Shown here piece by piece: positions 16,541 to 60,899 of a DNA stretch of 64,000 bases. Origin of the DNA: Isoetes taiwanensis (taxonomy: Eukaryota > Streptophyta > Lycopodiopsida > Isoetales > Isoetaceae); assembly GCA_021234155.1 (NCBI GenBank), contig JAJEKV010000062.1, forward strand, positions 3,321,305 to 3,385,304, read 5' to 3'. Each line of letters opens with the position of its first letter. Position 1 is the stretch's first letter. Both the position numbers and the translations under genes were made by a program. A model generated the notes under the pieces. That model was not told where the DNA came from, did not search any database, and was given only the letters and a program-made list of their open reading frames with translations.

Positions 16541-16554
16541 TCAAACAAAATCGC

Positions 16555-18480
16555 GTCGATCCAGACATCGGATCGCCATTCTAAATGGGGCGAGCATGCA
16601 TGTCTTGCATGCATGCGGTGGCGCATACCGTTTTGGGTTGGGAGTTAAGCTATTTGGTAGCATTTACGCATCCACGTCTCATCGGCTTCCTCTTCTCTCG
16701 GCGGTACCTTATTCTCTTTGAATTGTTTCGAGGCGGGGGAGGGGCTTCTTCACGCCTGGTTTAACAATTGGCGTTTCTTTCATGCTATCCTTTTCCGGCC
16801 TTGACCTTCGTCCTGTGACCTTAGTCCTCGATCCTAGTTTGTAAGGAAGTTCTCTAGTAGTCCGGGCGGTTTGTTGGTTTCTTCGCGAGTCCCATTCTAG
16901 AATCACATCGATCCAGAGACATCGGATCGCCATTCTAGAATGGGGCGAGTATCTATCTTGCATGCATCGCGGTAACATGCCCGTTTTTGGGTTGGGAGTT
17001 AAGCTATTTGGTGCATTTACGCATCCACATCTCATCCGGCTTCCTCTTCTCTCGTGATTACCTTATTCTCTTTGAACCCTCCCTCCCCCCTTCTTTATTT
17101 ATTGTATTGTGCTCAATTTTACGTTTTATCATGTTTTCCACCCGGTGGGTCTTTGCTTTCCACCCATTTGGGTGATTCTATTCTACGGTATGTTTGTGTT
17201 GTCTCGTTTGTTGTGTTGGTGATGTGCGGTCTGGGTTGGCAAGGCGGCATCTTTTTCGACTTCTCCATGCGGGGGTTTTAGGCGATGTCTATGCCTTCAC
17301 GTTTGTCTAAGCCCCTTGCCCGAAGGCTTATCACTAGGGTTTTCCTCGAAAACCGAAAGGGAGGTTTTTAATCCGGGTGATAAGCTTTCGGCGGTACATC
17401 AACCACTCATTTATTAGCATTGTATTTTTGGGGTCCAAGTGATATAATTGGATTTTCCCTTTATTTTTCGTGGGTAGTTAATGTGTGCGCTACCCTTCTC
17501 CCTATTGTGAAAATCTGGCGAGGATCATAGATAGGCTTCTCATTCATCTCGGCCGATTTTCTGCAATGAACGATGGAAACGCGCACCCACTAAAAAATAA
17601 AGGGAAAAATCAATTATATCGCAGGACAAAAAATACAATGCTAATAGATGAGTGGCTGATATACTAAAGCTTATCGCGGGATTAAACACCCCGGTTTTAA
17701 AAACCCTAGTGATAAACCGCCGACGGCTTGACAACGAAGGCATAAAAAAAAGCCTCCCAAACCCCCGCATGGAAATTCAAAATGATGCGCCTAACCTGCC
17801 CGCATAACCACACACAACAAACAACACAACACAACATACCGAGGATAACATCACCCGTGGCGAAAAAAGCATCACCAAATGGGTGGAAGAAAACATGATA
17901 AACAATACAATAAACAAAGAAGGGGGAGGGTGGGTTGAGAATAAAATGCTAAGAAAGAGGAAGCGCGATGAGTTGATGAGCAACCGCCTAAAATAGCGAA
18001 ACCCCAACCGAAAGGGCATGCTTATTGCATGCATGCATACAAAGAGATGCATGCTAAGCCCATTCTAGAATGTCGATCCGATGTCTGGATCGATGCGATT
18101 CTAGAATGGGGCTCGCGATGAAACCAACAAACCCCAAATACCCGGAGAACTTCCTTATCAAACTAGAATCAGGGCGAAGGTCACGGGATGAAAGGCTAAA
18201 AAGGGCGAGGTCGAGAAAGGACATGCCACGGCATGACAAAAAGCGTCAAATGGGCCAAACCAAGCGGAAGAAGCCCTCCCCGCCTCGAAACAATTCAAAA
18301 GAATAAAGTCTTCTTGAGAAGAGGCGCCCGATGAGACGTTGATGCAGAACCGCGCCTAAAATAGCGAAACCCCAACCAGAAAGGGCATGCGCCGCATGCA
18401 TGCCATGCAAGAGATGCATGCCATGCAAGAGATGCATGCTCGCCCCATTCTAGAATTCGGATCGACATTCTAGAATGGGG
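16555..18480. repeat. large near-spacerless inverted repeat
   Basis: The two halves, about 16,555-17,535 and 17,536-18,480, are reverse complements over nearly their whole length, centred near 17,535 with almost no loop. Matching landmarks include ACTCATTTATTAGCATTGTA on the left against its complement near 17,640 on the right, and CCATGCGGGGGTTTTA at 17,266 against its complement near 17,760. Arms differ by many small indels and substitutions. Each arm also contains a direct repeat of a unit with CATTCTAGAATGGGGC and GGGTTGGGAGTTAAGC. It could be a foldback transposon, an inverted duplication, or a long-read palindrome artefact. Confidence 0.85.
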
Positions 18481-40439: not shown

Positions 40440-40474
40440 CACACATTAGGGCGGATTTGGGGTCTGAAAATGGC
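40440..40474 (+). repeat. left terminal inverted repeat
   Basis: CACACATTAGGGCGG followed by ATTTGGGGTCTGAAAATGG. Reverse complement of 57,154-57,188 apart from one missing T near the tip and the last base or two. Confidence 0.75.
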
Positions 40475-40940
40475 CTCCTATCAGCCATTCCACGTCATAT
40501 TTCCGCTCCCTTTTTCCCATGCCACCTAGGATACCAAACTCTCATAATTACAGATTTGCTTGGAATATTCTTCCGGAATAAGGGGGATTGCACATTCATG
40601 GCGCCATATGTATTTAATTCTGTTGGTTGTCGACTGATTTGATGCAACACGTGGCGCTTCTAAAATGCCACTTGCATTATAGCATACCCGCAACTCATGG
40701 CGGTGTCTCTTAGTAAGCGTCTTGGCGTCACCGCCTTCTACATTTCAAAAGTTGAATGTGTAGGTTGAAGGCAGATCAGACTTTCATTTCGGTATTTGGG
40801 TCTGCGTAACGATCTTCACTTCATCCTAATGAGCTTCCTTCCCTACAATTCCAAATTTGAATTTGCTTAATGTATAAAAGCATGGATTGTAGGAGAATGG
40901 ACTTTTCGATTTCCATATGCGTTGCAAATTTCAAAAAGCG
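40475..40940 (+). repeat. subterminal repeat, copy 1
   Basis: Directly repeated at 42,398-42,912. Landmarks are TGGCGCCATATGTATTTAAT, ACTCATGGCGGTGTCTCTT, CTACATTTCAAAA and GCATGGATTGTAGGAGAATG. Copy 1 joins the terminal repeat; copy 2 does not. It may contain transposase-binding or promoter sequence. Confidence 0.85.
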
Positions 40941-41220
40941 AAGTTAGTACGGACGTTCGGCTCACCTGGCGGAATTGTGTTGGGGCATAAAAATACCACC
41001 CTTGATTTCAGCCGTCGCGATCTACGATATGGAAGTTGCTTGTTGTCAAATTAAACTTAAACACAAGTGAGGTCGGCACTTACGTGGTTTTGTCGAGGAG
41101 GGTTTGGAGTGTTTTTAAATCCCAATTATCGACATAGTGTGGCGTAGCATCTTGGTATTAAATAGTATGTTAAATTGAATTATATCGGTGTTCATGTTAC
41201 GGTTAAACTCAAATCATATA

Positions 41221-41333
41221 GGTTTAGGAATAAGGTTAAAAAAAGGAAGATATTGGCTATTTAGGAATAAGGTTAAAAAAGGAAGATATTGGATATTTAG
41301 GTATAAGGTTAAAAAGGAAGATATTAGATATGG
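41221..41333. repeat. three-unit tandem repeat, ~38 bp
   Basis: Unit TTAGGAATAAGGTTAAAAAA plus GGAAGATATTGG is repeated three times with slight decay. Confidence 0.85.
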
Positions 41334-41516
41334 CTCAAATTTGAGATATGCACATAATGGCATGTAATGATGGTTGATAGGACTGGAATCTGAATCATTC
41401 CCTCGATTTTCCGTCTAATCCACCTATATCTATTCCGACCTAGATTGGCTCCCATTCTCCCCAATCTCCGCCCAATCTTTGCTAGATCCTCATGTGAATT
41501 TCTCTAGTCCATCGCC

Positions 41517-41835
41517 ATGAAGAGATCAGCTACGGAAGAGCGGAGGTGTCCTCCAAGAAAGCCTATTACGGCTGGAAGAGGTGTTCCCTCCGCAGTTCCC
41601 TCCGGCCCCACGGTTCTTGCTCACGAATGCCTCGATTCCTCGATTCCTTTGGCGAGGAATGAGAGAATGAGAATCGAGGAAAAATTTGGGCGAGGAGTTC
41701 ATCCGCAAGTGTTCTTGAAGGCTTTTGGATAGGAGATTCTTGAGAAAATGAGTGGTCTACCGGGGAAGAAGCGAAGATGATGAAGAAGATGAAGAAGTTG
41801 AAGGCGAATCTGGCGACTTGAGGAGCTCATGGCGT
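41517..41835 (+). CDS. exon-like frame, possible N-terminus of the transposase-like gene
   Basis: Starts MKRSATEERRCPPRKP, a basic region, and reads on as IEEKFGRGVHPQVFLKAFG to a stop at 41,732. A neighbouring frame continues with an acidic EDEEVEGESGDL-like run to about 41,835. It lies inside the large element, on the same strand as the transposase-like gene 1.5 kb downstream, and could be its first exon with an intron that includes the second subterminal repeat. No domain is recognised; the frame change may be a sequence error. Confidence 0.3.
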
Positions 41836-42397
41836 TAGTTCATGGTACATGCATGTTTTCTTTCTTTTCTTAAGCATTCAACTAGCGGTTATTTCTTATT
41901 TTTTTTTTGGATGATGAAAGCGGATGAATGAAATTTGTTAGGGCGAGCACCTCTTATTTTTTTTCCTTGTTCTTAGTCGAGCTTGCCTCCGACTTCTTAC
42001 CATATGATTTGCAAACCTCGGGGCTTTTGTTGTGAATAGTTGAAGCCTCCGGACATTTAAATTTACAAAATGATGTAAAACCATCTTGACCATAAAAATT
42101 TTGAATGTAAAAAGTTTTTTGCTTCTAATTCCATTTGAATACCTAACTTTTTTTCTTACATGTGTTATCACTCTTAAGTACATAAGTCATCATCCCTTTT
42201 CAAAAGAGCATATTATTTTTCAAGGATCACACCAAGCGAATAGTACATATGCAACAAAATGGAACACACTAAATTAGCATCGTGTGATCCACTTTCTTAT
42301 TGTTGTCAAATTAAAACTAAACACAAGTCCTTAATCAATAGTCTCCCATTTGCATATAAAATATCTATCATTCCAAGTTATATTATGTTTTATGAAC

Positions 42398-42912
42398 TAA
42401 AATGGCCTCCTATCAACCATTCCGCGTCATATTTCCGCCCCTTTTTCCGTCCGAGTTGCTTGGAATATTCTCGGGAATAAGGGGAATCGCATATCTATGG
42501 CGCCATATGTATTTAATTCTCTTGTTGTCGGACAGTTGGCGCAACCACGTGGCGCTTCTAAAAAGCCACTTGCATTATAGCATACCGGCAACTCATGGCG
42601 GTGTCTCTTGGTTTGTCGGATACCAATCATGCGCATCACCGATTCTTGTCTTGCCCTATTTTCATTTAGAGTCCATTCCGCCTTCTACATTTCAAAATTT
42701 GAATGTGTAGGTTGAAGCTTTGTATTAGACTTTTCGTTTTATTATACTGCGATTAGCCTTAAAAGTTAAATGTAACGGGGATCTTTACTTCATCCCAATA
42801 CGAGGCTTCCGCCCCTACAATTCAATTTTTGAATTTGCTTTTGTATAAAAGCATGGATTGTAGGAGAATGGACTTTTCCATATCTGCGTTGCAAATTTCA
42901 AAAGCGAGGTTA
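42398..42912 (+). repeat. subterminal repeat, copy 2
   Basis: Direct copy of 40,475-40,940 without the terminal inverted repeat itself, and with about 50 extra bases in the middle. It suggests a nested related element or an internal duplication. Confidence 0.85.
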
Positions 42913-43379
42913 AATGATTTTGAGTCTCAAGCGAAGCCCAATTGCTTTGGGGCATACAAATTGTACACATTCATTTCGTAGATGCGATCCACAGCGGTAT
43001 GGAAGCTCAAATGATGTGTGGATAAGGATCAAACCCGACTTCGGGGAATATGCTCCAGTCTTCAATCGCATAAAAAGAGGTCTAAAAATAAGAACTTAGA
43101 CCTCCGACATGTTTAACATATGCGAGCTCAAAAAGTATCGACATCCGGGCGGATGGCGGTTTATATCCATTGGATCCGTTGAGTGGCGGGAAACCGTCAT
43201 TTCGGGGCGTTTCAAGTTTAGTCCGATTTTGTGGTGGCGGTAACTCGGCCTCTTGGGATATTGTGAGAGATTGAGAGAGGATGAAGGCATTCGAATCGAA
43301 TCTGAGTTCCTTGAGATGAGCTGCTTCCGATTGTCACAAGAGAATTATAACTAAACCAGCAGACTCTTTTTTCTCTGCG

Positions 43380-45490
43380 CTTCATTACTCCAATTTGTGA
43401 TGAAAGGAAAGGAATGGCGGCTTGGGGAGGGAAACTTCTTTGAGATCTGAAGTGGAGAAGTCCAAATTGGTGATAGGGCAGCTGCAAGAAAAGATCCAAA
43501 AGCTTCGAAAAGAGCAAACTTTGGGCTTCAATGTAGGTTAAAGAATTTGAAGAAAACACCCCTTGGCTTTGCGAGAAAGGAAGAAGCATTATCGTAGATA
43601 GAGGCCCGAAGTTTGGATCAGTGCATTGGGGCCAGAGTCCGCGGCCACAAGGTCCGTTTACAACACTAGCAAAGGCCGGTTAAGATCTAGGGGAAACTAG
43701 AAGCAATCTTGGTTACGTAGTGAAGAACCTAGCGACGAACGAGGGAGATAGTGGACATGATTTGTCGACCCTACAACTCTCCTCTCAAGAAGATGGTATT
43801 GGAAATGGTACTAGGGAGATCTACAAGAAGTTAGAAGCGACGGATGTAATAGTTGTTTGTGATGATGTAGGCATCCCGGTGAGGCTTGGTTACCGTTCTC
43901 TATTCAAGCCATTCCACGAAGCGTTGAAAAGAATGGGCACAAAAAGTATTAGCTCCGTCCACAAATTGTCGAGAATACAAAGGGTTACTAGGACAAAATG
44001 GTGTATGCCATATTAGGAGAGATGCACCCACGTTGAATGTCTTTGGTCTGCCATAGCCATAAAAAGATAAGAATGGCAAGGATTGTTGTGATATAGTTGG
44101 AATGAATGAGCATAATAATCTTTGGGTTGACACGGTTACTCTCTTACAATTCCTTGTCAAATATTATGACTTAACGATTCGCGAGAAACTAATGGTGAGA
44201 TTGAAGTTTGCATAAAATTGGATGAAATGGAACCCGACCAAGTTTGAGAAGTATGAGAGGGTATCCGTTGTCATCATGAATAGAGCAATTGAGAATGCAA
44301 TTGCACATGCTAAATCAAAGAGCAACAAGAATAACAAAAAAGATGTAGAGGTGGCCGGACGAGGAGAAGAAGCGTCTTGGAAAAAATGGTTCTCATGTCA
44401 ATCAAGATGACACACGGTGGTTAGGTCTCTTTAAAAGTTGAAAAAAGAAACCCGCGAGGTTTTGAAATGGGTGTTCAATCAAACTGACATCCAGAGTCTA
44501 ATATCTAGATTGGGGAGGAAAAATTGCAAGTAGATCACTATGGATCTTACAAAGTAATTTTTCACTTGGCGTCTGATTTAAAAGCGAAAAGCAATGTACA
44601 ACATAAGTGGAGGAGGACAAGGAACATGCAAAAGTTGTGCATGCTGCAATCATGCAAAGGAAGTCAAATCTTGGGAAGATCTGTTTCAACCTTGTCCCTT
44701 AACCAAGCAAATGCTCCTAATAGAGGGAGAAGAAGATCCCAAGTTCCATGGCATTTTCCCCATTCCATTAGAGGGGGTTCATATCGCACTTTGCGGCTTT
44801 GTGAGAATCATCGACAAGATGATATTTTTGAGCTGTAGATTCGTGTGGAACATTTCAGACAAAAGAAGAGGAAAGAATTATTAGAGTTGAACATGTTCTA
44901 TCGAGAAGCAAGGTTTGCATGGTGGCAATGTAAGATTAGAGCTCGATGAAAGCGGGCGGGGAAGAACAAGTGTGCCTACCGTAAGGTGTCAATTGGAGGG
45001 GTGAAAGCTTCGGCCTTCATAAAGAATCATAGAGAGGCTCGAGCGGAAACCGGATGGGAGAAAAGGTCTATGAATTTGGAAAATTGCTGGTTGATCGCGG
45101 GCTTGGGACGCCTGAGGATGGCGTTCGTTCGGCATTGAGGAAAAAAAAGCATGGGATGCATTTATGCGAATTGTTCCCATACATTGAGAGAATGGACCTC
45201 ACAAAAGAAGATCGCGAAAATGTTAGTGCAAGCGAATAACAAATTTATTAAAGCTTTCATAGGCGCATGGGAGAGAGTGAAGTCACGCACTACTTGCACA
45301 TCTTTTGGGCTCATGCACCTTGGTTTTTAGGAAGTATGGAAGCCTAGCGATTGTGGAGTGCACAAGGCATGGAGAAGTAGCATAAACAAGCTAAAATAGC
45401 CTTTCATCGTAACACTCAAAGAGGGGTGGAAATGTGGGAACCAACCCTCTAAGACAGATGGCCAGAGTGGTTTTATAGAAGGCGATGGCT
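43380..45490 (+). pseudogene. transposase-like gene of the large element
   Basis: Coding-like text is visible in successive frames. There is a coiled-coil KLVIGQLQEKIQKLRKEQ near 43,470, then VIVVCDDVGIPVRLGYRSL and PHEALKRMG-like text near 43,850. A Cys-rich GTCKSCACCNHAKEV lies near 44,620, with FHGIFPIPLEGVHIALCGF near 44,750, SAFIKNHREAR near 45,020 and KVYEFGKLLVDRGLGTPEDG near 45,065. The C-terminus has WSAQGMEK, HKQAKIAFHRNTQR and WFYRRRWL (45,350-45,490). The Gly-Met-Glu-Lys-Ser-His-like block recalls C-terminal regions of uncharacterised eukaryotic transposase-like proteins, but I cannot name the family. Many frame changes break it; sequence error is a likely contributor. It is the only candidate mobilising gene between the two TIRs. 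Confidence 0.45.
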
Positions 45491-45890
45491 AAATCGACAA
45501 GAAGGTTAAGCTTTAAGGAGCAACCCAGTTAAGTAAACACCATTGGCATAATCTTTGAAAGCGAGGAAAGTTGCTTGGCAAAATTCTAGGGCCCCACTAG
45601 CATCATAACGATTGGAGATCTAAGAGACAAAGAATGGGTAAAGTATACTTGTAATGTGTAGCATGTTCTACGGCCAGAGAAGTACTTGCCTCCAACCTTG
45701 TTTGCACAAACGTGTAGCCCGGGGTGTGATCTTATTTGTATCATCTGTGTGAACGATTGGAGTTAAGCTATTGCTTGCATTTATGTGAAAAGCCGGCGTG
45801 GTGTGAAGCTTTACAAGATAATAATAAAAAGGGTTACTTTTTGATTAAAAGTTGTGAAAGATGTTACATTGAAAAACAAAATACAACGAC

Positions 45891-46362
45891 TCATTGTTGC
45901 TCGGTCGCGAGCTCTTCTTCATTATCTTCATCATCATCATCAGCTCCGTCCTCGTCTTAGTCTTCATCTCTTCCCCTCAAGCGAGCAATCACCCCTATCC
46001 AAGCGTTCCTCCAATCGTCCACCATCTCTTTGTACATGTCCGCTCTCGTCCCAATAGCACAAAGCGTGTTCTTACGCCTGAATTAGCATCCTCGTTGCCC
46101 GTCATAACCACCTCGGTCGGTTGTTGGGGCATGTCATCACAATCGACCTTCTATTCCACCGCTTTGGATTTGCCTCTCTCGGCTCACGAGCATGAGAAGG
46201 TTGAATTCATTCTCTTCTTCTTTTCTGCTGAATTGTAGCGGCGTTTTCCTTTAGAAGATCATCTTGCTCCTTCAACCTCTTCATTAGAACACCCAACACT
46301 ATGTCGAAAGGAGTTCTATCCTCTTCGTTTTCCATTATGGCGGTTGAGGATGTGGAGGCCAT
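45891..46362 (-). CDS. small acidic coiled-coil protein 1
   Basis: Starts MASTSSTAIMENEEDRTPFD and continues IVLGVLMKRLKEQDDLLKE, a heptad-type helix, with an acidic DDDDEDNEEELATEQQ tail before the stop at 45,891. Middle segments such as FNLLMLVSRERQIQSGG lie in other frames, so one or more indels are present. A TATA-like TGTATAAAT lies about 90 bases upstream of the ATG. It shares start (Met-Ala-Ser-Ser/Thr), orientation, size and promoter style with the genes at 46,816 and 48,657. Function unknown; a nucleic-acid or chromatin accessory role is a guess. Confidence 0.4.
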
Positions 46363-46815
46363 AGATGACAAATGGGAGGGGCGTTAAGATTATAGAAGTG
46401 AGGAGCAAAGACTCTAACGGCGGAAGGAGCACATGCAAGGACCTCAATTTATACATATTGGCGGCAGAACATATTAAACACACTCATTTGCTTTGCGCCG
46501 CGTGTCGAGGATTACGTCGGTTGTCAAGCTAGAACACATTAATGAATCTTGTCCATTTGGAACACATTAATAACTATTCTAACTTCTGCGTATATCATAT
46601 CACCCAATGCGGGAAATCGCACGAGCTTTAAAACCCTATGAAGGGGTTTAAACCCCGTGTGATACATCTTGTCATTCTCTCTACCACGGATATTGAAAAT
46701 TAAAAATAGGAAGCGTAATGATCGGTACATTTGTCAAAAACTTTTCCCATTGAAAAAATAAAACCAATTACAAACATTAAAAAAAAAGCGGGCCCCTCTA
46801 GGAGGAGCCCGATGC

Positions 46816-47221
46816 CTATCGAGCCGGCAAGCTCTTCACGGAGGCGGTGATAATTTTTTTCTGCTCCTCCAACATGATTTGCCCGCCAACCACGTTCTCA
46901 TATTCCGCAACCTTATCTTCCCGCTCATCGAGTTGGGCTCGGGCGACCTCTCAAAAGATTAAATTAAGCCTCTCTTGGAGGTTATATCTCATGGTAGCGC
47001 GTGGCGGTCTAAAGCAACCAGATGATTGGATTATCGCACTAAAATCACCTCCCACAATAGAAGGCGGCTTTTTCCTGCCAACCCGGCTTGGCGGCGTCTT
47101 CATCATTCTTTTCTTTTTTTTAAGCGGATCCGTTCCTCAAAACCCGCCGAATATTTACGAATTTCCTTGACCAAAACTTGAGACAAGATCTCGGCGGGGA
47201 TGGGCTGGAGCTGGAGGCCAT
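46816..47221 (-). CDS. small coiled-coil protein 2
   Basis: Starts MASSSSPSPPRSCLKFWSRK. A basic stretch (KKRKRMMKTPPSRVGRKKPP) is followed by a coiled-coil with QLDEREDKVAEYENVVGGQI and ends KSLPAR. The frame is interrupted at least twice. A TATA box (CTATATAAAA) lies about 95 bases upstream and a pyrimidine-rich leader precedes the ATG, so the start is well supported. The basic Pro-rich patch and the helix suggest DNA or chromatin binding, but this is inference. Confidence 0.4.
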
Positions 47222-47689
47222 TGAAAGTGATGGGAGAGCAGGGAGTGATGGTAGAGGCGGATGTGGTAGAGCGGAAGATGGCGGATAGGAGAAGACAAAG
47301 GCCTCAGGCGTTTTATATAGAAACTAGAATCGTTGGAATCACGGTTCGCGACTAGATAAAGTTGTGTAATAATCCTACGACAGCGAAATTATAGCATTCA
47401 ATTAGGCAGCGGTAGCCTATGTTAAGCATCATGGGATCCGTCATATCCTAAGTCTTGTATGCGGGCCGTACAAAAACGATGTTATTATTGTGGCGGTGCA
47501 TGCCGCGTCCTTAACATGGCGTTGTCATCCACAAACCCGCGTATGTGAATAGGCGTTGTCATCCACATGCAAATTAGCATTTACACGCAAAGTTATCATA
47601 TCCAAATCTAGCTAGATATTTGTGTTACATATACTTTTCCATTAATAAATTATGAATTTATACATACAACGAGGTGTACGTTGTGGAGA

Positions 47690-48230
47690 TCATCTGACGA
47701 GAAATCCATTGATTGCTACCTAATTGCAAGAATGGCATTCGCGTCAAGTGTCTTTAATAAAACAAAACAAGAGAAACGATAGAAGCAAAAGATAGGAGCA
47801 AATTTTTCTTTGAAACAAAAAATATATATACAATGGCTCGGATCTTCGGATCTTCGCGAAACATAAAGCTGCGTTCTCATCTCGGCGGCTTCCGAAGCAA
47901 AATCTTCTAAAAATGTTGTGTGCCGATTAAGCGCCTAGACTCTTTGGCCTTCATTTTGGTTATGTTGCGCGAGCTCAAGGTCACAGCTCATGCGGCGACC
48001 CCACGTTCTAATCCTAACCTGTCCATCTTCGTCGACGGCAGGCGGCTGTCCGTCGTGAACCTCCGAATCTCTTCATCACTTCGCCCAGCGAAATGTTGTG
48101 TCTGTGAGGATAAAAGCGGCTTCCGACCCGATTAAACTGTTGGGGAGGATAAGCGAAAGCGGAAGGTACAGGAGTTAAAGTTCTGAAATAAGCGGGTTTG
48201 GGTAACAAGGTCCCAACTCTAAAGATGGGT
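47690..48230 (-). pseudogene. degenerate copy of the coiled-coil gene at 48.66 kb
   Basis: The DNA at 47,690-47,930 matches the 3' part and downstream of the next gene (48,440-48,690), sharing AAATCCATTGATTGCTAC and GGCGTTCTCATCTC-like text. On the minus strand it reads EVMKRFGGSRR where the neighbour reads MKRFKEIHDENE. No start codon or promoter is clear. It is a decayed tandem paralogue. Confidence 0.45.
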
Positions 48231-48656
48231 CCGGGGAAAATCGTGGCCAGTTACTTCTACGGCGTCGTGTGAGGAAAAGGACCCGTTACTTCTTCTAACG
48301 TCTTTTCTTCGAGCTTCGTGTGATAATTTTTATTGATAATTTGGTGATACAATCTATACATAGAAGTAATTTTACATTACATAACTAAAAGATAGAACTT
48401 CTCATTGAAGCAAAATAGAGCGGCATGGAAGGAATCTGCGGCTGGCGAAATCCATTGATTGCTACCCTAATTGCAAGCAAGGCATTTAGGCGTCGTGTAT
48501 TTAATAAAGCAGAACATACATTGGAACAACGGGGATAGATAGAAGCAAAAATAGAAAACTTTCAACGGCAAAAAGATAGATACAATGGCTGGGGATCTTC
48601 ATGATCCTCTAGCTGATTTTCATAATTACGGTGAAGCGTGGAATGGCGTTCTCATC

Positions 48657-48994
48657 TCACTTTTCGAGGGCTTCTTCCTCCATATCTTCTAAGGCACAAG
48701 AAATCATGTGAAGCGGTTTCAAAGCTACCCTTTCCCTGGCTTCGTAAGCCTCTTGGTATGGCGAATGTTTCCCGCAGGCGCTCCAGCGTCTGGCTGCGTC
48801 ACGTGACTCCCTCGTGAAGGCTAATCGTAGAGCATATAATTTCGATTTCTCGGCGACGAGACGTTCATTTTCATCATGGATCTCCTTGAATCTCTTCATA
48901 CCCACTTTGCAAGGGTGATGTCCGCGAACACGCTTCGGGGGCTGGAATTTTTATCTTAGTGGTCGGCTTGCTGAGAGGAAGATGATGATGCCAT
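48657..48994 (-). CDS. small coiled-coil protein 3
   Basis: Begins MASSSSSQQADH; the longer frame then reads MKRFKEIHDENERLVAEK and goes on SKLYALRLAFTRESRDAARR to CALEDMEEEALEK at the stop. A basic PKRVRGHH-like stretch lies in between, reached through one or two frame changes. A TATA-like TTATAAAAT lies about 80 bases upstream. The alternating Glu, Lys and Leu pattern predicts a coiled-coil of about 60 residues. The partner is unknown. Confidence 0.45.
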
Positions 48995-49232
48995 CGGGCC
49001 AGGAAGGTGGAAGCCGGGCCAGGAGTAGAAGATGGCGAAGAGCGTCGAGGTCGGCGTGGACATCGGTCTTCTATTTTATAACATAGATTAAGGCGGAATA
49101 AATAGTGGTGTGTTTTCAATATTTCATTTCTTGAGATAGATATCCTGCGACGGCGAAAACCTAGATGTAATGAGGAAAATCAGGCCGATGTATTTGTTCG
49201 TGATGTGAATAAATACAAATAAAATAATTTTT

Positions 49233-50700
49233 ATTAGAACTTTGAAGGACAATCCATTACATAAATAATTTTACCGATACAAGTTGGAAGCATATAACTT
49301 CCAAATTCTCTCAAGCCGTCGTCCAATTTCATGCTCTTTCAATCCCCTTGATCCAACAAGGCAATGACTTCCATGTTATGCGACCCAGCTTCAACCTTGG
49401 GTGAGTCAAACCCGATTAGCTAAAAATTTAACATACATTAACAAGCCATGAACCGGCAGTCGTCAAAATGTTAATAACACGACATCCGCTTGAATTGCTA
49501 TGCCAGCGTTGTTTGATGCAATTGGAATGGTTCCCGAACATGCATAATGCCGCGGAGTAATAAATAAGCTTCGCACCCGCTTTGGACCAGAGAAGTTCTG
49601 CTGAAAGCGATTATCTCCCCATTAGCGAATCTTGAGATATATCTTAACAATGTAGGATCCTTTAAATCTTTCTGTCCCCGTTACGTAATGAAATAGAAAA
49701 AATCATCTATACCGACCAGAACCCTCAAGATTATCTTCTTCACATTTGTCCCTCTTCTACCGGGCTTATGCTGCGGTGGTGAAGGGCACGCCCAAACACA
49801 GCCAGATCATTGGCAGCTTTACGCGGAGCCATTTGGAATTCTTCGTTGGTTCGACGTGGGGCGGAGTGGGACCGATAACGGCGGAAATATAGCATTGCGG
49901 TATAATTAGAATGCTTCAGTATCTCTTTGTCAAATCCTCTTCTTCAAAATCTAGGCTAAAGTTTACCCATTCGGCCAGATGCGATAAGCTTTCATTTGCG
50001 CACATTAAGTAACGCCAGGCCGGGGTCCTCGGTATATCCTTAGCAATAAGTATTCTTTGCCTTCCACTAAAGTGGCGTTATGTCGGGGGCTTAGCTGCTA
50101 AATCCCTCATCCCCATCCTCATCACCTTAGAATCATCTCCCTCTGGTTCACCCAAGGCCCGGTCGTCGAAGCTAAAACTCCTACATTCAACTCTTCTTCT
50201 TGTAGATCTATCTCCATTTCTACGTCATAGTCGGCATCATGCATGGCTGACCCCCTTGGCTTAAAGATTTCATTGTTTCAGTGTATCTTCGGTTTGGCGA
50301 AGCGAGAATGCAATAACTAGCAAATGCAAAAGCGGCAAAGAGAAATAAGGTACCTTCTTAAGCACGAGGGGCATGACCCGGGGAGAACCCGTTACGGCAT
50401 TCTTGAAAAACATCTTCCTGTTTGCAAATGGGAAGCTTGCGCCTCCTCTAGAGCTGGTTTGGAATCCGCGAGCGAGGACATCGCGGGGCGTCGCGTTTGA
50501 GACCAAGCGATTACGGTGAAGCTAACAACCTGGCGATAGCATCAAAGCTTCCTTCTTGTTGTTTGCCATGATGTCGCTCGCCTGTCGAGCGGATAAATCG
50601 CGTCCGGTACCGGCTACCGTTACATCCATGAGGCGGATGCATACCGATCGGAACTTCACACATAACCGTCCATGGCCCGAAGCAAGCAGCGAAACAAGAG
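49233..50700 (-). pseudogene. spliced gene of unknown function (gene Y)
   Basis: Minus-strand coding-like pieces lie between the telomere-like box (50,810) and a stop followed by AATAAAAA at 49,233, a plausible polyadenylation signal. They include ANRKMFFKNAVTGSPRVMP near 50,400, MEIDLQEEELNVGVLASTTG near 50,215, RRTNEEFQMAPRKAANDLAV near 49,840 and LREFGSYMLPTCIGKIIYV near 49,270. A 107-base intron at 50,247-50,353 is likely (AAG|GTACC to GTCAG|CC). Start could be 50,673 or 50,569. Frame changes occur throughout. Its 5' part is present again at 53,739-54,100. I recognise no family. Confidence 0.45.
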
Positions 50701-50809
50701 ATGTTTAGGAAGCGGTAAAGGCGATATCACTTTTGAACTCAAGTAGCGTTGATTTACCAGAAGGGGACGGGTTTTGTAGGGAGATTTCTCCGCAGGTACA
50801 TTTTAGAGG

Positions 50810-50830
50810 TTAGGGTTAGGGTTAGGGTTG
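50810..50830. promoter_or_regulatory. telomere-like TTAGGG repeats (copy 1)
   Basis: Three consecutive TTAGGG units between the H3-like gene and gene Y. On the minus strand this is AACCCTAACCCTAACCCTAA, an extended telo-box about 150-240 bases upstream of gene Y's possible starts. The six-base unit is not the usual plant seven-base TTTAGGG. Too short to be a telomere. Confidence 0.6.
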
Positions 50831-50984
50831 GATCACCGCGGCCGAAGACTACTATATTGCAACAAAAAAGCACCGCTATTTTGCGGCGTCGTGTGATCCT
50901 CCGATATAACATTAAAAAAAAAAAATGAAAGTCGAAGCTGAGCTTCTAAAAAAAATGGACTAAGATTAAACATAAGCCATTGCA

Positions 50985-51849
50985 TTAGAAATATTATACA
51001 TATATGAAAAAACACAAAGGCACTTCCGCGGCCTTTTACGGGGGTCTTTCTTCTTGTATTCAGCCATAAAATTTTGACCATAGTACTTTCGGGATCCCTT
51101 ATCAAGTAAACCGAAGCATGTCCGCGGGCATAATGATCACCCAGCTTGGCGTATTCTTTAGGCTGCCCGAGTCCTCGAGCGGGCCGACACCAGCGCTTCC
51201 GAACCATTTGAAGAGCATTTAAAAATGGGTTAGCGAATGTGATGCCGCACCCGTTTCTTAAGTCTCTCCTGGCGGCAAATGGGAGCGGAATGACCATCTC
51301 GATGCTTTCTTCGATGCTTCTTAATCTTTCGGCGTATCTTTAATGCGGGCTTGCGTCTTCGCTTCGGCCTCTACCTCACCCACCCCAGCATTTGAACTGT
51401 TGCTCGACTGACTCTTCGGTAGCCTCCTCCTGACATCTGCGGTTTGTTCTCGGCGGAAGCTCTTCGTGAATCTCCTCCCACATTCTGGTGGCACCCCTTT
51501 TCACGGCGTTGGGCCTCCTCTCGTTTGAAGGTCACGGCACCTCCAGGAGGAAACGAGGAGGGCGAGAAAAGAGCAAGAAGAAGCGGTACCCAATAATTAA
51601 TCGGCATCATATTACGCGCCGGCGGTCTCTCCCACCATTTCATCTCGTCTCCGGGCAGGTGCACCTCCTAACTACTCCAGGGCTTCTCCGGCGATTACGT
51701 CATCAGCGGTTTCTTTCGGGTCATACATTGAGGCATAGTGGAGGAGGAGAATCTCTCGAGGCGAGTGTTGAGGATGAAAAGCGGACTAATGTATCACACT
51801 GTTGCCACCACCGGATGGATCGCTTTGCGGTTTGCTTAGTTCTTGCCAT
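50985..51849 (-). CDS. histone H3-like protein, copy 1
   Basis: The minus strand begins MARTKQTA and continues KRS, nearly identical to the H3 tail (ARTKQTARKS) with Lys4 and the Lys9 region. After a long segment come pieces matching the H3 fold: VIPLPFA (H3 IRKLPFQ), NALQMV and SEALV (H3 MALQEACEAYLV), LEDSGSL (H3 LFEDTNL) and VIIMPADMLRF (H3 VTIMPKDIQLA). The fold runs past the canonical IRGERA end into IRDPESTMVKILWLN. The tail-to-fold distance is about 500 bases against about 130 in H3, so there is a long linker or an intron. Frame changes interrupt it. Probably the same locus as 54,409-55,313. Confidence 0.75.
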
Positions 51850-51999
51850 GGCTTCTCCGCCGGATGGATGCTTTATACCACTGTTTCGACAAAATGAACA
51901 AGCGGCGAGATAAATATTAAAAGCGAAGTTAAATAAAATATGATGGTGCGTTTTTAAATAATTGTCACGGAACCCTAAAAAAATATCGGACAAAATCTG

Positions 52000-53480
52000 G
52001 AACCCTAAAAACATCAGGACAAAACGCAAATAAAAACCGAGATTCAAAGCTAGCCGATAGACAATTTCTTGTTGATCGTGAACTCACTAAACTTTACATT
52101 TCCCTCTTGCACGGCAACAACCTAATGCCGTCAATAAAATAATGGAAGTCTGACGGGCTCCTCGTCTCCATTAGCACTCTTAGCTCGATAATGGCCATTA
52201 AACTCCATGGTGGCGTATAAATGACTTCCTCCCCTCTCCTACTTTCGAATATCCACGCTCCTCCGGGAGTCCCCTATTATGGTCCTCAAGCGGCTCCCAA
52301 AAGTTGTCGCGACCTCTCTTTTACCGTTTCCTTCGTTCTAGTTGACGAATTAGCGTATAAATATTGTTTTTGGAAGAAATATCGAACCTTAAGGAGGACT
52401 TAACTCACAGCCGGACCTACGTTAGTTGACCGGATGATTAAATTGGAATCCCGAACATCCAGTCGGAACCAAATAAAGCCATCCACAAAATCGGCGTTAT
52501 ATGTCTTGGGGCTTTTCGAACTTCTAATCGCGGAATATGTTAGCAAATACCTCAAGCGGTGTGAAGATTTTGAAACTCATCCTCGCGCCTCCGTTTTCAG
52601 ACATTCCAGCTTGCCTAAATCGACCATGCATTTCTTCATTGCAATTACATTGTTCTCATTAGTCGTGGCTTACAAAGTTCACTTAAAGGGGCATTTCAGC
52701 AGGCCTCAAGCTGGTTTCACGACCTTTGCGTTATAATCGTATGGTGGAAACGGATGCTACTACCCGCAAGGTCCGCATCCATACCTTGGAAAAGGACAAT
52801 TCGATGTCTATGTGATACCGCGAAAAGTACGCTACTAATACTTCGTAGGAATGACATCCGGCGTCGATAAACATAAACACACAATAAATTGTTTGTAAAA
52901 ACGGTGTCAGCGAAAAATGAAAGATAAGAAGATCACTGACGAAACTATCTCTCTGCTTTATTAAGTAGGCGACTAGCCGGCGTCGTGTGATCCGTTTAAT
53001 GTAGTTTACCATTTTAGGGCAATTTTGGGAAAATTTGGTTTGATTAGCTCTTTGGCCATATCGGAAGGGGTATATGCATGTCGTATTGTTATACTCCACT
53101 TCAGGCGCTAAGAATTCAGCGAACTCTTTTATCCTACTATCAATGTGCTCGCGTCGATGTAGCTATTAAGCTCTATGCTGCGCCCTGGTTGATGGCGACA
53201 TACTCACCTGAACCTATTGAACAAAACCTCCGCTGCGACCTTGGGGTTGCGCCCGTGGGGCAGAACCACGAAATTACAGGAGACATGGATTGCGGATGAA
53301 AGTGAAGGGAGAGGAGGATGCGATAGAAGCGCCCGGTGGCGATCACGAAGTTTAGTAAAATTTGGCTCTAAAGGGAGTTGGTGGCCGTACGGCGATGTGA
53401 TCAGTCAAAGTCACCATTATTTTGGAAGCGACTCAAAATAAGACCCATTAAAATGGATTTGCAATAAAAGCGCGGGCATC
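52000..53480 (-). pseudogene. unknown gene upstream of H3 (gene Z), copy 1
   Basis: Corresponds to 55,446-57,030. Frames are more disrupted here, so the better copy is described there. A minus-strand frame at 52,731-53,099 reads ISFRYHIDIELSF-like text, part of the middle of the gene. Confidence 0.35.
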
Positions 53481-53725
53481 CCCTATGAAAATCGCCATGT
53501 GGATGCCAAATAGCTTTGCTCATCCTTCTACACGGTATCACTACGACTTTTCGTAAAGCAGGCGATTGAATACAGCCCATCTAGCGTGGAAATCTTTTAT
53601 TTAAGATAAGGGCCATTTCAGACCCAAATCCGCTAATGTAGTGAGCGGGGGTGTTTTGGCAAATAGGATTTCCTTTTTCTTTTCACTTTTTAAGGACATG
53701 CATAACTTATATTAAAAACTCAAAA

Positions 53726-53738
53726 NNNNNNNNNNNNN
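53726..53738. other. assembly gap, 13 N
   Basis: The only ambiguous bases in the window. They sit exactly at the junction of the two 3.4-kb copies. Confidence 1.
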
Positions 53739-54100
53739 ATGCAAGCGGAAGAAAATAAGATACCTTCTTAAGCACCTGGGGCGCAGCCAGGAGGAGCCCG
53801 TTGCCGCGGCATTCTTGAAAAACATCTTCCTGTTTGCAAATGGGAAGCCGCCTCCTCTAGAGCTGGTTTGGAATCCACGAGCGAGGGGACATCGCAAAGG
53901 GCGTGCTTGGCGGAGACCAAGCGATGCGGGTGAAAGCTAAAGCAACCTCCTGATAGCATCAAGCTTCGCTACTGTTTGCCATGATGTCCAACTCCTTGCA
54001 ATAGAACGGATAAATCGCGGTCGAGCATAACTTCCCTCGTTGTCATGAGGGGGATGCATACCATTCGGGGAACTTCACATAACAATCCATGGCCCAAAAG
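53739..54100 (-). pseudogene. 5' part of gene Y, copy 2
   Basis: Minus-strand text includes MDCYVKFPEWYASP, then LVSAKHALCDVPSLVDSKPA and LEEAASHLQTGRC, parallel to 50,350-50,700, and ends at the same exon-intron border (AAG|GTATC) next to the gap. Function unknown. Confidence 0.4.
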
Positions 54101-54219
54101 CATTTAAAACAAGAAGATGTTTAGGAGCGGTAAAAGGGCGATGTCACTTTTGAACTCAAGTAGCGTTGTCGATTATGAAAGGGGACACAGCCGTTGTGGG
54201 GAGATTTCTCCATTACATT

Positions 54220-54245
54220 TTAGGGTTAGGGTTAGGGTTAGGGTT
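54220..54245. promoter_or_regulatory. telomere-like TTAGGG repeats (copy 2)
   Basis: Four TTAGGG units in the position equivalent to 50,810-50,830. The different unit number between the copies is one more indel between them. Confidence 0.6.
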
Positions 54246-54408
54246 GGATCACCACGTTTAAGACTACTATGTGCAACAAAAAGCACAATGCTTGCCGCGT
54301 CGTGGGTGATCCTCAATGTATAACATTAAAAAAAAAAATGCAAAGTCTTGAAGCTAGGCTTCCTAAGAAAGAAATGGACTAAGAGATTAAGTTTATAAAG
54401 CCATTGCA

Positions 54409-55313
54409 TTAAGAAATATTATACATATGAAAAAAACACAAAGGCACTTCACGGCCTTTTCCGGGGGTCTTTCTTCTTGTTGTATTCAGCCATAAAATTT
54501 TGACCATAGTATTTTCGGGATCCCTTATCGTAAAGGCAGGCGCATGTCCTTGGGCATGGCGGTCACCCGCTTAGCATGTATTGCTGCAAAGTGCGCGAGT
54601 CCTCGAACAGAGGGCCAGACCAACGCCTCGAAGCCATTTGAAGAGCATTTAAAGGCGGTTGCTTGAATTCTCAGAATTGGTATGATGTATCGCACCACAC
54701 TCTTGCAGAATCTCTCACGAGCCCTGGCAAATGGGAGCGGAATGACCATCTCGGTGCTGCCGATACTTCTTAATCTCGTGAAGCTTTAATACCGGGGCTT
54801 AGGTCTTAAAGCTTCGGCCTCTACCCTCACCCACCCAAGCATTTGGAGACTGTTGCTTTCGGCCGACTCTTCGGTAGCCTCCTCACAAAGATCTCGGTAG
54901 GGTTTCCTCGGCGACTCTTAGGCCGTCTCCTCCCACATTCACGGTCAGCCTTCCCTTTACGGCGTTGGGCCTCCTCCTCTCGATTTGAAGGTCACAGCAC
55001 CTCCACGGGGAGAGCAGGGAGGCAGGAAGAGCAAGAAGAGGCGGCTGCCCAATAATTAATCCGGCATCATATTACGCTTCGCGGTCTCTCACATTTTCAT
55101 CCCTGTCTCCGAGCGAGTGCACCTCCCTACTTACTGGGTTTGCTTCTCCCATGATCACGTCATGCGGATTTCTTTTTAGGGTCTTACATTGGGCATGGTG
55201 GGAGGAGGAGAATCTCTATCGAGAGACTTGAGTGAGATGAAGAAGGCGGACTAATGTAATCACGGCCTTACACCACACGGATGGATCCTTGCGGTTTGCT
55301 TAGTTCTTGCCAT
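54409..55313 (-). CDS. histone H3-like protein, copy 2
   Basis: The clearer H3 reading. The start codon at 55,313 opens MARTKQTAR, identical to canonical H3 through Arg8. The fold near 54,520-54,800 shows KALHEIKKY-type text (H3 ALREIRKYQ), STEMVIPLPFA (H3 STELLIRKLPF), LVR/EI (H3 LVREI) and LFED. It ends AIHAKRVTAMPKDMRL, which aligns with H3 AIHAKRVTIMPKDIQL almost residue for residue. A basic C-terminal extension (TRRKTPGKGREVPLCFF) runs to a stop at 54,409 where ordinary H3 ends at IRGERA. H3 pairs with H4 in nucleosomes; the tail carries methylation sites. Frame changes split the fold, likely in part sequence error. The ~500-base interval after the tail is not canonical. Confidence 0.8.
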
Positions 55314-55445
55314 GGTTTCTCGGCGGATGGCGCTTTATACTACTGTGAACACCGACAAAAATAGACAATTGGGGGGAGATAAATAGTAAAAAAGAAGTTA
55401 AAAGTAAAATATGATGGTAGCGTTTTTAAATAATTGTACGGAACC

Positions 55446-57030
55446 CTAAAAATATCGGACAAAATACGGAACCCTAAAAACATCAGGACAAAAACACAAA
55501 TAAAAACCGAGATTCAAAGCTAGCCGATAGAACAATTTCTTGTTGATCATGAACTCACTAAACTTTACATTTCCCTCTTGCCCGTAACCAACCCTAATGC
55601 CATCAATAAAATAATGGAAGTTAAATTGACAATTTCCTCTGTCTCCATTAGCACTCTTAGCTCGATAATGGCCATTCGCTTTCCATGGTGGCCGTATAAA
55701 TGACTTCCTCCCCTCTCCATACTCGAATATCCACGCATCTGAGTGTCTATTATGGTCCTCAAGCGGCTCCCAAAAAGTTGTGCAGACCTCTCTTTTTACG
55801 GTTTCCTTCGTTCTAGTTGACAATTAGCATTATAAATATTGTTTTGGAAGAAAGTATCTGAACTTAAAGGAGGACTTAACTACAGCGGACCTCGTTAGTT
55901 GACCGGATGATTCGTGGAATCGAACATCCAATGTCGGAACCAAAATAAGCCATCCACAAAATCGGTAGGGGAGAAAGCACGATATATGTCTTGAGCTTTT
56001 GAACTTCCTGCGCCATCGGAATATGTTAGCAAATACCTCAAGCGGTGTGAAGATTTTGAAACTCATCCTCACGCCTCCGTTTTGACATTCATTCGCTTGC
56101 ACCTCGTCAGCCATGCATTTCTTCATTGCAATTACATTGTTCTCATTAGTGCGTGGCTTACAAAGTTCACTTAAAGGGGCAATTCAACCCGGCCTCAAGC
56201 TCGGTTTCGACCTTTACGTTATAATCATGTCCTAGATTAAAACCAGATGCCTATACCCTTAAAGTCACGGCATCCATACCTTGGAAAAGGACAATTCCGA
56301 TGTCTATGTGATACGACAAATTTACACTACTAATACTTTCGGCCGGAATGACATCCACGACGTCGATAAACATAAACCCGCACAATAAATTTGTTTGTAA
56401 ACACGCGTGTCAACGAAAGAAATGAAAGATAAAGAAGATCACCGACGAAACTATCTCTCACTTGCTAGTTAAAGTAGCTGTGCCTAGCCCGGCGTCGTGT
56501 GATCCGTTTAAGGTGGTTACCATTTAAGGCAATTTTGGGAAAATTTGTTTTTGGTGGAGATTAGCTCTTTGGCCATATCGAAGGGGTATATGCATGTATT
56601 ATTGTTATACTTTCCACTTTCCGGCCGCTAGAATTCAACTTGAACTCTTTTATCCTACCTATCCAATGTGTCCATACGTCGCCGCCTTTGTCGCTAACTC
56701 TATGCTCGCCCTCGTTGATGGCAGCATACTCACCCACGAACCTATTGAGACAAAACCTCCCACTTCTTGACCTTGGGAGTTCGTAAATGGGGCAAGAACA
56801 ATTACGAGGAGACATGGATTGCGGATGAGGAGTGAAGGCGGAGAGGATGCACGATAGAGGCGCCCGGGTGTGATGTAAGTTTGGCCAAAATTTGACAAAG
56901 GGAGTTGGTGTGGCCCGGCGGTAGGGCGGTCAAAAGTCACCATTATTTTGCGCCAAGCGACTCCCAAAAAATACGGGCCATTAAAATGGTTGCAATAAAA
57001 GCGCAGGCATCCCCTATGAAAATACGCCAT
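55446..57030 (-). pseudogene. unknown gene with possible BAH-like N-terminus (gene Z), copy 2
   Basis: Minus-strand text near 56,815-56,580 reads SCPIYELPRSRSGRFC, then EYAAINEGEHRVSDKGGD and THWIGRIKEFKLNSSGRK, ending IIHAYTPS. The Trp-Ile-Gly-Arg-Ile block followed by a hydrophobic strand and Tyr-x-Pro resembles BAH domains, which bind nucleosomes or modified histones; this is tentative. Further on, frames give FVDGLFWFRHWMFDSTNHP and, in a 125-aa frame (55,446-55,823), WIFEYGEGRKSFIRPPWK and NCQFNFHYFIDGIRVGYG, coding-like but unrecognised. It ends about 130 bases before the H3-like start, on the same strand. Its 5' end is close to the right terminal repeat. Confidence 0.4.
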
Positions 57031-57153
57031 GTGGATGCCAAGTAAGCCTGCTCATCCTTCTACCTGCCAAGTAATACTGACTTTCGTAAAAAAGGCGCAA
57101 ACCTGATTGGTCCTGGCGAATCTGACGTGGAAATCTTTAGCCCAAGATAAGGG

Positions 57154-57188
57154 CCATTTTCAGACCCCAAATCCGCCCTAATGTAGTG
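57154..57188 (-). repeat. right terminal inverted repeat
   Basis: CCATTTTCAGACCCCAAATC followed by CGCCCTAATGTAGTG, the inverse of the left repeat with a full CACTA tip. The same terminus appears with small indels at about 53,605-53,646 in copy 1. Confidence 0.75.
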
Positions 57189-57275
57189 AACAGGGAGTCC
57201 ATTTTTGGCAAATAGGATTTCCTTTTTTTTCTTTTCCCTTTTTAAGGACATATAACTTATATTAAAAACTCAAAA

Positions 57276-58410: not shown

Positions 58411-60895
58411 AATTAATCGTGCTCATAAGGGCCTTGAAGAGACCATAGAGCAGCAAATTTACAATGATTCAATTTTCAATAACAAACTGCGGTGGGATTC
58501 CACTGTTTTCAGAAACTGTCCCAATTTAAATGGTTCCATATCAAGAAGAGAATGGAAACTAGTGGCTGTGACATCAAACTTACTTCTGATATCGGTATAT
58601 GCTGGGCATTTAGTGAAAGTATGGTCTTCATCTTCGATCATAGCTAGGTCACAGAGCGTGCAAAGCCTGGAATCACGCAGGATAACATGCCATCGCCCAG
58701 TTTCAATCCTCAGATGATGTGAGGAGGTACGTGCCCTGGCAATGACATGTTTCAAGAAGCGAGGTATCTGTGCTCGCAGGTAATCCTGTTCTGAATATAT
58801 CAACATAGGATTGACCTCAGCTGCATAGTATTCCATCCTAGAGCCTTTGTTGCTCCAAAGCCTTTCTACGACCAAAGTGAGCAGCAAATCCCTGGCGCTG
58901 ATTGCATTATCCGGCCAATTAGACTCAGTTATGCCCCACCGAGCTGCCCAATCCTTAAGGTTCTTGTGCCAACCATTATTGGATAACTCAAGTGCTTGCC
59001 TGGAAAGTCTTGCTTGAGCAAGCACCCGATTCGCAAAGTTTATTGATTGGTATAGTGCTTCGGCCTCAAGAGGCAACATCCCCGACTCAGCAAGCATGAT
59101 GGCATATGGCGTTTGGTGCTTCACTCCTAGCTCGTTCATCAAAAAAATCTTCAAAATCATTTCCACCTGCTTCCATTGATTTTGTGAGAGGCTGGGCCCC
59201 CAAATTGGTGCCCCATACAGAGTAATCGTCTGTACTAGAGTCTTAAACAGTAGCTTCTTGAGCCCCCAATCAGATATAGATGCCTTGTGGCACTTCGATA
59301 GCATGGCATACAGGGCTGTTTTACCTCCAGTAATCCTCCTATTCATGCATTCCTTCCAGTTGTATTTGCAGCAGAAGTCTAAGCCCAGATATTTGTAACT
59401 GCTTACTGTCTCTAGCGCATTGCCTTTGTAGCTAAATGATGGGCGATCTGAAGTACCAACAATCATTATCTTGGATTTTGCCAAGTTCACTGTCATATCA
59501 CGAGCTTCACAGAATAGAGCAAGACTATCCAAGAGCTCTTGAAGTCCTTCTTTCCTGTTTGCTATGAGCACTACATCGTCGGCATATAACAGGAGCTGCA
59601 GAGTATAATCCCCTATGTGTGTGCCTGATAGGCATCTGTCTCTCAGCCAGGTATCTAATTCATCAATGTACAAGCCGAATAACATTGGAGATAATGGGCA
59701 TCCCTGCCGGACCCCGATTGTGCTCCTGATATTTGCATGCATCTCCTGATCAAGTTTGACAAGTACCTCTGAGTATAGATTCGCAACTGCCCCTTGGATT
59801 GATTGTGGCACACCTATTTGTTTCATCCTTTCGCTTAAGCCCTTCCTGGGTACCATGTCAAAAGCCTTGGAGAAATCGATGAAAGCTAGGTATAAAGATT
59901 GTCTCGGCTCTCTTGCCTTCTCAAATAACACCCTGAGTGTTAGAGCATGATCTAATGTGCTATGTTTGCTTCTAAATCCTGCTTGACAAGGGGATCTCTT
60001 ATTGCTCTCTTCCGCCCAATGACTGAGTTTCTGTTCCAGCACTGTACCAATCAATTTAGCAAAGATTGAACCAATCAATATAGTTCTGTAGTTGCGCACG
60101 TCATCTTTAGCACCGGCCTTATAAATGGGGTGGACTCTGTTCTCTCTCCAATGTTTGGGCAGCCCTTCGCTTAGAGCTACGTTGAGCAGCCTGGTAAGAA
60201 CCTCCAATGTTTTCTTTCCACTCCATTTCATCAATTCAATGTGCAATCCCTGTAAATCTGCAGCTTTGCCATTCTTCATTCCCTACAATGCATCTGAAAC
60301 GTCTTCCATGGAGAACATGTCCCCTGGCACTATCAACTGTGGCATCCCTTCGGCGTTTTGCACATAGTATATTTCCTTCACAAATTCGTAAAGCTCATCT
60401 GCTCCTAAAATAGATACGTTACCTTTTTTTAGGACGCTGTTCCAGAACATCTTTGGATTGTCCCGCAATTTGCTGCACATAACTATTTGCTGCTGCTTCA
60501 TATATTTTCTTTTCTTCTGTCTCAGGAGCTTTTTATACCAATATTGAGGCTTGGAGATACATGCCTTTGGGAGCAGCGCCCTTGCTGCAGAGCAATCAGC
60601 ATCCCACCATCCATTTCTTGGTCGTCTATTGTTTCTTGGCTTAGTGTAGCCAAAGATTTCTTCGGCCACATCAAGGAGGATCTGCGCAAATAGAGAGACA
60701 TCATTCTCTAGTTTCATGGACCATACAGTATCCGCAATTCTTGCTTCTAATGCCTTGCAATATTGTTGCTTTTGGTTAAAATCTAACTTCAGCTTTGCTT
60801 TAAAGACATTGGTGTTTTCTGGTGGTACTAGCAAGCACATTGAAACATAGCTGCACATGTTGCTTGATGTTGCCATGTTTCTACAATCAAAATCA
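58383..60895 (-). mobile_element. LINE ORF2, near-intact RT with one in-frame stop
   Basis: The minus strand carries the last few residues of an endonuclease domain (CSYVSMCLLV), a linker, and a full reverse transcriptase with KAADLQGLHIELMKW, DVRNYRTILIG, QAGFRSKHSTLDHAL, AFIDFSKAFDMVP, GVRQGCPLSPMLFGLYIDEL and LLLYADDVVLI. Then come a thumb and a C-terminal zinc-knuckle-like CTLCDLAMIEDEDHTFTKC. The frame runs 60,876 to 58,459 with one TAG at 60,283-60,285 just before GMKNGKAADL. After the stop codon at 58,459 the 3' end reads GAGCACGATTAAT followed by a (CATTA)n microsatellite. APE-type non-LTR element, 5' truncated; clade not assigned. Confidence 0.93.
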
Positions 60896-60899
60896 GATC

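Follow-up and report, generated by a model that had tools for sequence, protein, structure and literature searches.

A multi-copy DNA transposon family of Isoetes taiwanensis carrying a divergent histone H3 gene

Introduction

Histone H3-like genes have been described as cargo of fungal hAT elements in Pyrenophora tritici-repentis (PMC3538342) and Pseudocercospora fijiensis (PMC6710886). Here, we describe an element in a 64,000-nt stretch of DNA from Isoetes taiwanensis (contig JAJEKV010000062.1), which is referred to as the window and whose positions serve as coordinates. The element belongs to a multi-copy DNA transposon family with an element length of ~13.6 kb. The family carries its own H3 gene, whose product would have K4 but not K9 and is predicted to weaken silencing based on H3K9; judged from sequence, we give this proposal an even chance.

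Arabidopsis VANDAL elements encode VANC, a sequence-specific anti-silencing protein. They resemble the Isoetes element in that a plant transposon protein would act on the silencing of its own element, but VANC is not a histone, and the corresponding function of the Isoetes H3 is a proposed one. The hAT element of P. tritici-repentis shares with the Isoetes element the inverted ends, a transposase, a further open reading frame (ORF), an H3-like gene and several near-identical copies. Its H3-like protein (H3L) fits neither H3 nor CenH3 and has tail insertions that parallel the H3 described here (PMC3538342). However, it is a fungal element of 5.6 kb with a hAT transposase, whereas the Isoetes element has another transposase, ~13.6 kb, more genes, no target duplication that we could find, and an isoleucine in place of K9. 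In P. fijiensis and its relatives, an H3-like sequence was likewise amplified within inverted ends, in elements of ~9.5 kb. These differ in being hAT elements with 8-bp duplications, in having copies destroyed by repeat-induced point mutation, and in an intron-less capture, whereas an intron is likely in the Isoetes gene (PMC6710886).

Two further groups are comparable. The CMCT clade (EnSpm/CACTA, Plavaka, ESTA and others) is similar in its CA..TG ends, in the motif order of its transposase as compared by eye, and in chromatin-related cargo, with some fungal members carrying TET/JBP genes (PMC12730594). It differs in its 2–5 bp target duplications and dioxygenase cargo, whereas the Isoetes element has no duplication that was found, a histone as cargo and no Pfam transposase match. 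Pack-TYPE elements, too, are DNA transposons of plants that enclose sequence from host genes, but they are non-autonomous and hold gene fragments (PMC8903248), whereas the Isoetes element holds a transposase-like gene.

The initial annotation of this locus knew of no plant DNA transposon described with a core histone as cargo. The fungal hAT elements are precedents for such cargo; in our literature search, with subscription papers and preprints outside its scope, H3-carrying transposons were recognised in fungi only. The Isoetes element differs from the fungal hAT H3 elements in transposase, cargo and target-site behaviour, and probably also in kingdom. Alongside the fungal H3L elements, it points to more than one uptake of a divergent H3 gene, by transposons that are not related to each other. 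How transposons counter silencing is illustrated by those with chromatin genes, such as TET/JBP in fungi and VANC in Arabidopsis. If the proposed role is true, a core histone without the silencing lysine as cargo would make the arms race between transposon and host directly testable.

Results and discussion

Termini and extent of the element

The features of the element that are considered first are:
40444..40475, plus strand: left terminal inverted repeat, outer end 5'-CATTAGGG
40467..40946, plus strand: left subterminal region, with a direct-orientation repeat at 42399–42912
43128..45500, plus strand: transposase-like gene, related to protein P0121; end placed by eye from the QGMEKSH motif and the sequence past it
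50324..53725: first reading of the right half with host flank
51018..51851, minus strand: first of two readings of the histone H3 variant gene; approximate limits, with the start codon at 51849
53611..53638, minus strand: right terminal inverted repeat, first reading (ahead of the N gap, contains miscalls)
53726..53738: 13-N assembly gap
53739..57275: second reading of the identical right half with host flank; unmerged contig overlap
54528..55315, minus strand: second reading of that histone H3 variant gene
57152..57183, minus strand: right terminal inverted repeat, second reading (past the N gap)

The inverted ends of ~33 bp in the initial annotation were recovered as a perfect pair (33/33 nt; 40443–40475 and 57152–57184), the 32-nt core of which had no match in 100 shuffled windows when up to 3 mismatches were allowed. 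Deeper than 45 nt inward, the left and right ends were no more alike than shuffles. The element termini were placed at 5'-CATTAGGG...CCCTAATG-3'. The CACTA-type tip, which had also been annotated, was rejected as chance flank because the right ends stop short of it, at ...CCCTAATG; sequence identity breaks off after ...CCGCCCTAATG in 30/30 of them, the window's own counted.

The original length of 16.7 kb also had to be corrected. An end-to-end alignment of the 3.4 kb ahead of the 13-N gap with the 3.5 kb past it takes in the right terminus and the host flank (3744 columns, with 2969 identical, 226 substitutions and 549 gap columns). In addition, the right half was present once in 9/9 fetched copies that could be aligned over most of the element. 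The assembly apparently placed two overlapping contig ends side by side. The right half is therefore one stretch read twice, and the element here spans 40444–53638 (~13.2 kb) with a single H3 gene read twice. On the same grounds, two tandem H3 units were rejected.

Copies of the element and their insertion sites

The terminal 71 bases at the right served as query against the 1.66-Gb genome (1110 contigs). All 40 scored matches, the window's own counted, were 97–100% identical; they came from 1090 first-look candidates. Ten other copies were fetched over 18 kb, followed by 10 further copies for the H3 region. Both ends were found in 7/10 fetched copies, 13,519–14,285 bp apart, so the ends also pair at other genomic places, and the check proposed with the initial annotation gave a positive result. 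In the remaining three, the alignment was confined to the right 2.4 kb of the element (L039), masked bases were present (L045), or the alignment began at about base 290 of the element (L047).

The transposase relative P0121 matched 9/10 fetched copies (all but L039), and the H3 query also matched 9/10 (all but L045). The H3 region aligned in 9/10 further copies (all but L057), and the MARTKQ start was readable in those same 9; it was also readable in L045 and unreadable in L047. Overall, 19/20 other copies that were examined have H3 gene DNA in the same position, with L039 perhaps lacking the 3' part, and the MARTKQ start was readable in 18/20. Several copies thus hold the transposase and the H3 between paired ends, which supports the annotation on this point. 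The divergence between copies was ~0.7% substitutions in clean contexts, as an upper bound, which indicates that the family is young.

The expected 3-bp target duplications did not materialise. No adjacent direct repeat of 3–9 bp was present in any of the 8 copies with both flanks (window included), one of which shares TT, and no duplication was visible by eye at the window copy, whichever flank base was taken. No shared insertion target was seen in the flanks of the 8 copies. An empty site, proposed as a check in related genomes, was found within the same genome. The repeat that surrounds copy L062/L027 is present at L015 without the insertion, and the flanks join precisely there, with 0 bases gained or lost. 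This shows that the element moves as a unit, in this instance without target duplication. A second empty site was sought for copy L024, where no left end or element DNA was found within 6.2 kb around the expected place. This copy and L057, which has no H3 region, both match at the right end and are perhaps shorter derivatives. The right flanks of L005 and L006 are 98% identical over 565 columns starting at the insertion point, which could mean that the locus is duplicated, that the contigs are allelic or that both copies inserted at one position of a repeat.

The histone H3 gene

The divergent H3 gene annotated on the minus strand was confirmed by several comparisons. The tail tip MARTKQTA occurs in both readings of the window, a match that is weak alone (E 0.3–0.5, tblastn). 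The H3 fold was detected at 54758–54528 with E 8e-7 (38.9 bits, compared to 28.1 bits for the best of 30 shuffles). The unedited window translation matched H3 chains in the PDB from ~4e-5, with Schizosaccharomyces pombe CENP-A best by a small margin (1e-5), and the Pfam Histone family with 5.5e-5, under its curated cut-off. Of the unedited copies, L055 showed 70% identity to plant H3 across 47 residues, and L058 contained a 36-residue H3 stretch within one frame. The typed reading, merged from copies, matched Pfam Histone with 1.4e-27 and H3.2 in the PDB with 1.7e-30. Its best 60 of 173 PDB chains were canonical or other H3 variants and none was centromeric, in a comparison that included no plant CENH3. 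Loop 1 is longer by 4 residues in this reading, and the DNA around the insertion is exact in 20/21 sequences. The best database protein was a 444-aa protein of Nymphaea that consists of several canonical H3 units in succession; no relative of the element H3 was recognised among the best 120 of 5359 protein matches.

The protein would start with MARTKQTAR followed by IHP. K4 is thus kept, whereas K9 is lost, with isoleucine in its place. RIHP was read in 17/22 readings (20 copies and the two of the window), and GCAAGGATCCATCC, the codons for A-R-I-H-P, was exact in 18/21 aligned sequences, two of which are the window's readings. The frame would start at MARTKQTARIHP. Beyond this start, CCAG|GTGGTG is present in 4 copies and is likely the 5' splice site of the gene; a longer tail stretch lies between this site and the fold. 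The H3 would be translated from the MARTKQ start and spliced.

The transposase-like gene and classification of the element

The plus-strand transposase-like gene also stood up to scrutiny. The stitched reading of this gene had one protein match, P0121, which has 663 aa and is encoded on a metagenome contig in ENA. When P0121 was compared to the unedited window by tblastn, the match had E 1e-29 and 117 bits, and the best of 30 shuffled windows reached 28.9 bits. The majority sequence from 10 sequences matched P0121 with E 3e-90. Neither P0121 nor the stitched readings had a transposase match in Pfam, the only profile collection used here, and this includes Transposase_21, hAT and Harbinger-type families. 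A zf-RVT match on a transposase piece (E 0.057, under its cut-off) was taken as chance. The AlphaFold model of P0121, computed for the protein alone, had a predicted local distance difference test (pLDDT) score of 35 and was unusable. P0121 and the terminal inverted repeat were not found in viral contigs.

By eye, P0121 contains VDLK...CIYC...HICTLH, and the element additionally has QGMEKSH. By eye, this order resembles the D, C(2)C, H(4)H, E of a published description. In the CMCT clade, D and D with C(2)C and H(3-4)H stand ahead of the last E, the ends are CA..TG and the target duplications are 2–5 bp, whereas the Harbinger relatives PHIS/Spy have a 0-bp target duplication (PMC12730594). The Isoetes element ends in 5'-CA..TG-3', as in the CMCT clade, and shows a zero-base target duplication at its empty site, as in PHIS/Spy. 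Judging by motif order and ends, its plus-strand gene, presumably a working DDE transposase, probably acts like a CMCT-type enzyme. Despite the ends and the motif order, we did not place the element in that clade, because a 2–5 bp duplication was absent from the 8 flanked copies and from the empty site. Membership of CACTA/EnSpm was rejected on tip, target duplication and the Transposase_21 profile. Membership of hAT was rejected in the absence of a Pfam hAT match and of an 8-bp duplication. The element is also not of the non-autonomous Pack-TYPE, as the transposase relative matches 9/10 copies.

CAG/CTG miscalls and probable methylation

When the two overlap readings were compared, trimers of the CAG/CTG class agreed at 16/96 sites, compared to 39–79% for the other 31 strand-merged trimer classes. 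CAG/CTG occurs at 0.49 of expectation in the element, at 0.62 in the left flank and at 1.03 in the right flank, and TGCAG/CTGCA was observed 2 times in the element against 13 expected. Of the 10 fetched copies, 9 had a readable flank, and 8 were clearly poorer in CAG/CTG per kb than their own flank; L039, mostly unalignable to the element, barely differs from its flank. At the H3 start, ACTGCA is present in 5 copies and ACCGCA in most others. This signature is most simply explained by long-read miscalling at methylated CHG sites. Deamination fits poorly, because CG is at expectation within the element. Due to the miscalls, reading frames from a single copy are unreliable base by base. In some long-read plant assemblies, the CAG/CTG sites of methylated transposons may thus be illegible, and genes of this kind would then be missed in annotation.

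Proposed role of the H3 and alternative explanations

Plants maintain H3K9 and CHG methylation in a mutually reinforcing loop through SUVH4/KYP and CMT3. An H3 tail without K9 fits an anti-silencing role. In such a role, element-made H3 would be deposited in nucleosomes on the element, where the lack of K9 would break the H3K9/CHG-methylation loop, while the retained K4 could still carry active marks. If the copies are now mostly silenced, the H3 would matter in cells or generations with an active element. A bolder version, in which the family is a new plant lineage of zero-duplication DDE transposons whose dedicated K9-less H3 forms a silencing-proof nucleosome, independent of the fungal hAT H3L, is put forward tentatively and is on balance doubtful.

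Several points weigh against this proposal. The CHG-methylation-like signature suggests that the present copies are silenced and that silencing is not escaped now. No fetched copy has an unbroken H3 frame, which we put down to the CAG/CTG miscalls, and the lengths of loop 1 and of the tail come from readings merged across several copies. The start codon and the intron are deduced from sequence, the TATA box lies only ~26–28 nt upstream of the ATG, a short distance for an ordinary leader, and a further exon may lie upstream. The examined copies are those closest to the right end of the window, not a random sample of the family. Lastly, the 13 shared transposase variants (4 silent, 9 replacing) show no sign of constraint, in a count that is uninformative as a selection test.

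The same transposase variants are compatible with the H3 being a passenger, a host H3 copy captured by transduplication that spreads with the transposon and brings it no benefit. We consider this quite possible, if on balance doubtful: plant DNA transposons often capture genes (PMC8903248), and in P. fijiensis all hAT H3 copies save the original are inactivated (PMC6710886). The Isoetes H3, however, is at the same place in 19/20 copies with its own TATA box and a conserved start, and keeps the fold while being unlike canonical H3 in its tail, at K9 and in loop 1, which is more than expected of a fresh host copy. The longer tail and loop 1 also recall centromeric H3. The protein could then serve transposition or targeting instead of blocking silencing: as a CENH3-like or architectural part of the nucleosome, it would mark the DNA of the element or steer its insertion. 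This is improbable in our judgement: CENP-A leads the PDB chains for the unedited translation by a small margin, but centromeric chains are missing from the best 60 of 173 for the fuller typed reading, and the flanks of the 8 copies share no target. It is very nearly inconceivable that faulty assembly produced the whole unit, or that it is a host locus whose ends arose by chance. The right half is truly an artefactual duplicate across the N gap, but the same ends and gene order occur elsewhere with different flanks, and these copies together with the empty site refute this explanation. The proposal of an H3 that weakens silencing of its own element fits the loss of K9 in the tail.

Other genes and motifs in the element and the window

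The remaining genes of the element are:
45900..49065, minus strand: three to four small genes that by eye look coiled-coil-like, none matching a Pfam family at the cut-off
49250..50260, minus strand: acidic protein gene, family unassigned
52000..53580, minus strand: gene formerly called BAH-like; BAH match absent

The small coiled-coil genes of the initial annotation were retained in so far as three to four were coiled-coil-like by eye, with no Pfam family to support them at its cut-off. The possible BAH identity of the gene at 52000..53580 was dropped, as profile searches gave no BAH match. A 15-nt motif, GGCGTCGTGTGATCC, has 7 sites at up to 3 mismatches between 42224 and 56505, compared to 0.59 expected. 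All sites are within the element and mostly intergenic; three are exact, two of which are one place read twice. Four consecutive TTAGGG-like repeats (50806–50835) lie between the H3 gene and the next minus-strand gene, in both readings.

Outside the element, region 3093–6733 contains a transposable-element-like ORF with a weak DUF7869 match (E 3.5e-5, under the cut-off). Near it, in CAG/CTG-poor DNA, is a minus-strand SET-domain ORF (E 1.1e-4, just above the cut-off). The region may represent a further transposon that carries a chromatin gene; convincing inverted ends were not seen there. The patch at 16001–18000, poor in CAG/CTG (8.5 per kb) and rich in CG (57.5 per kb), is perhaps another methylated element. 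Region 58459–63172 contains LINE-type reverse transcriptase ORFs with long open frames, in which CAG/CTG is not depleted. The closest named matches of this LINE protein, which point to a seed-free plant as host, are from the liverworts Calypogeia (46%) and Riccia, followed by ferns.

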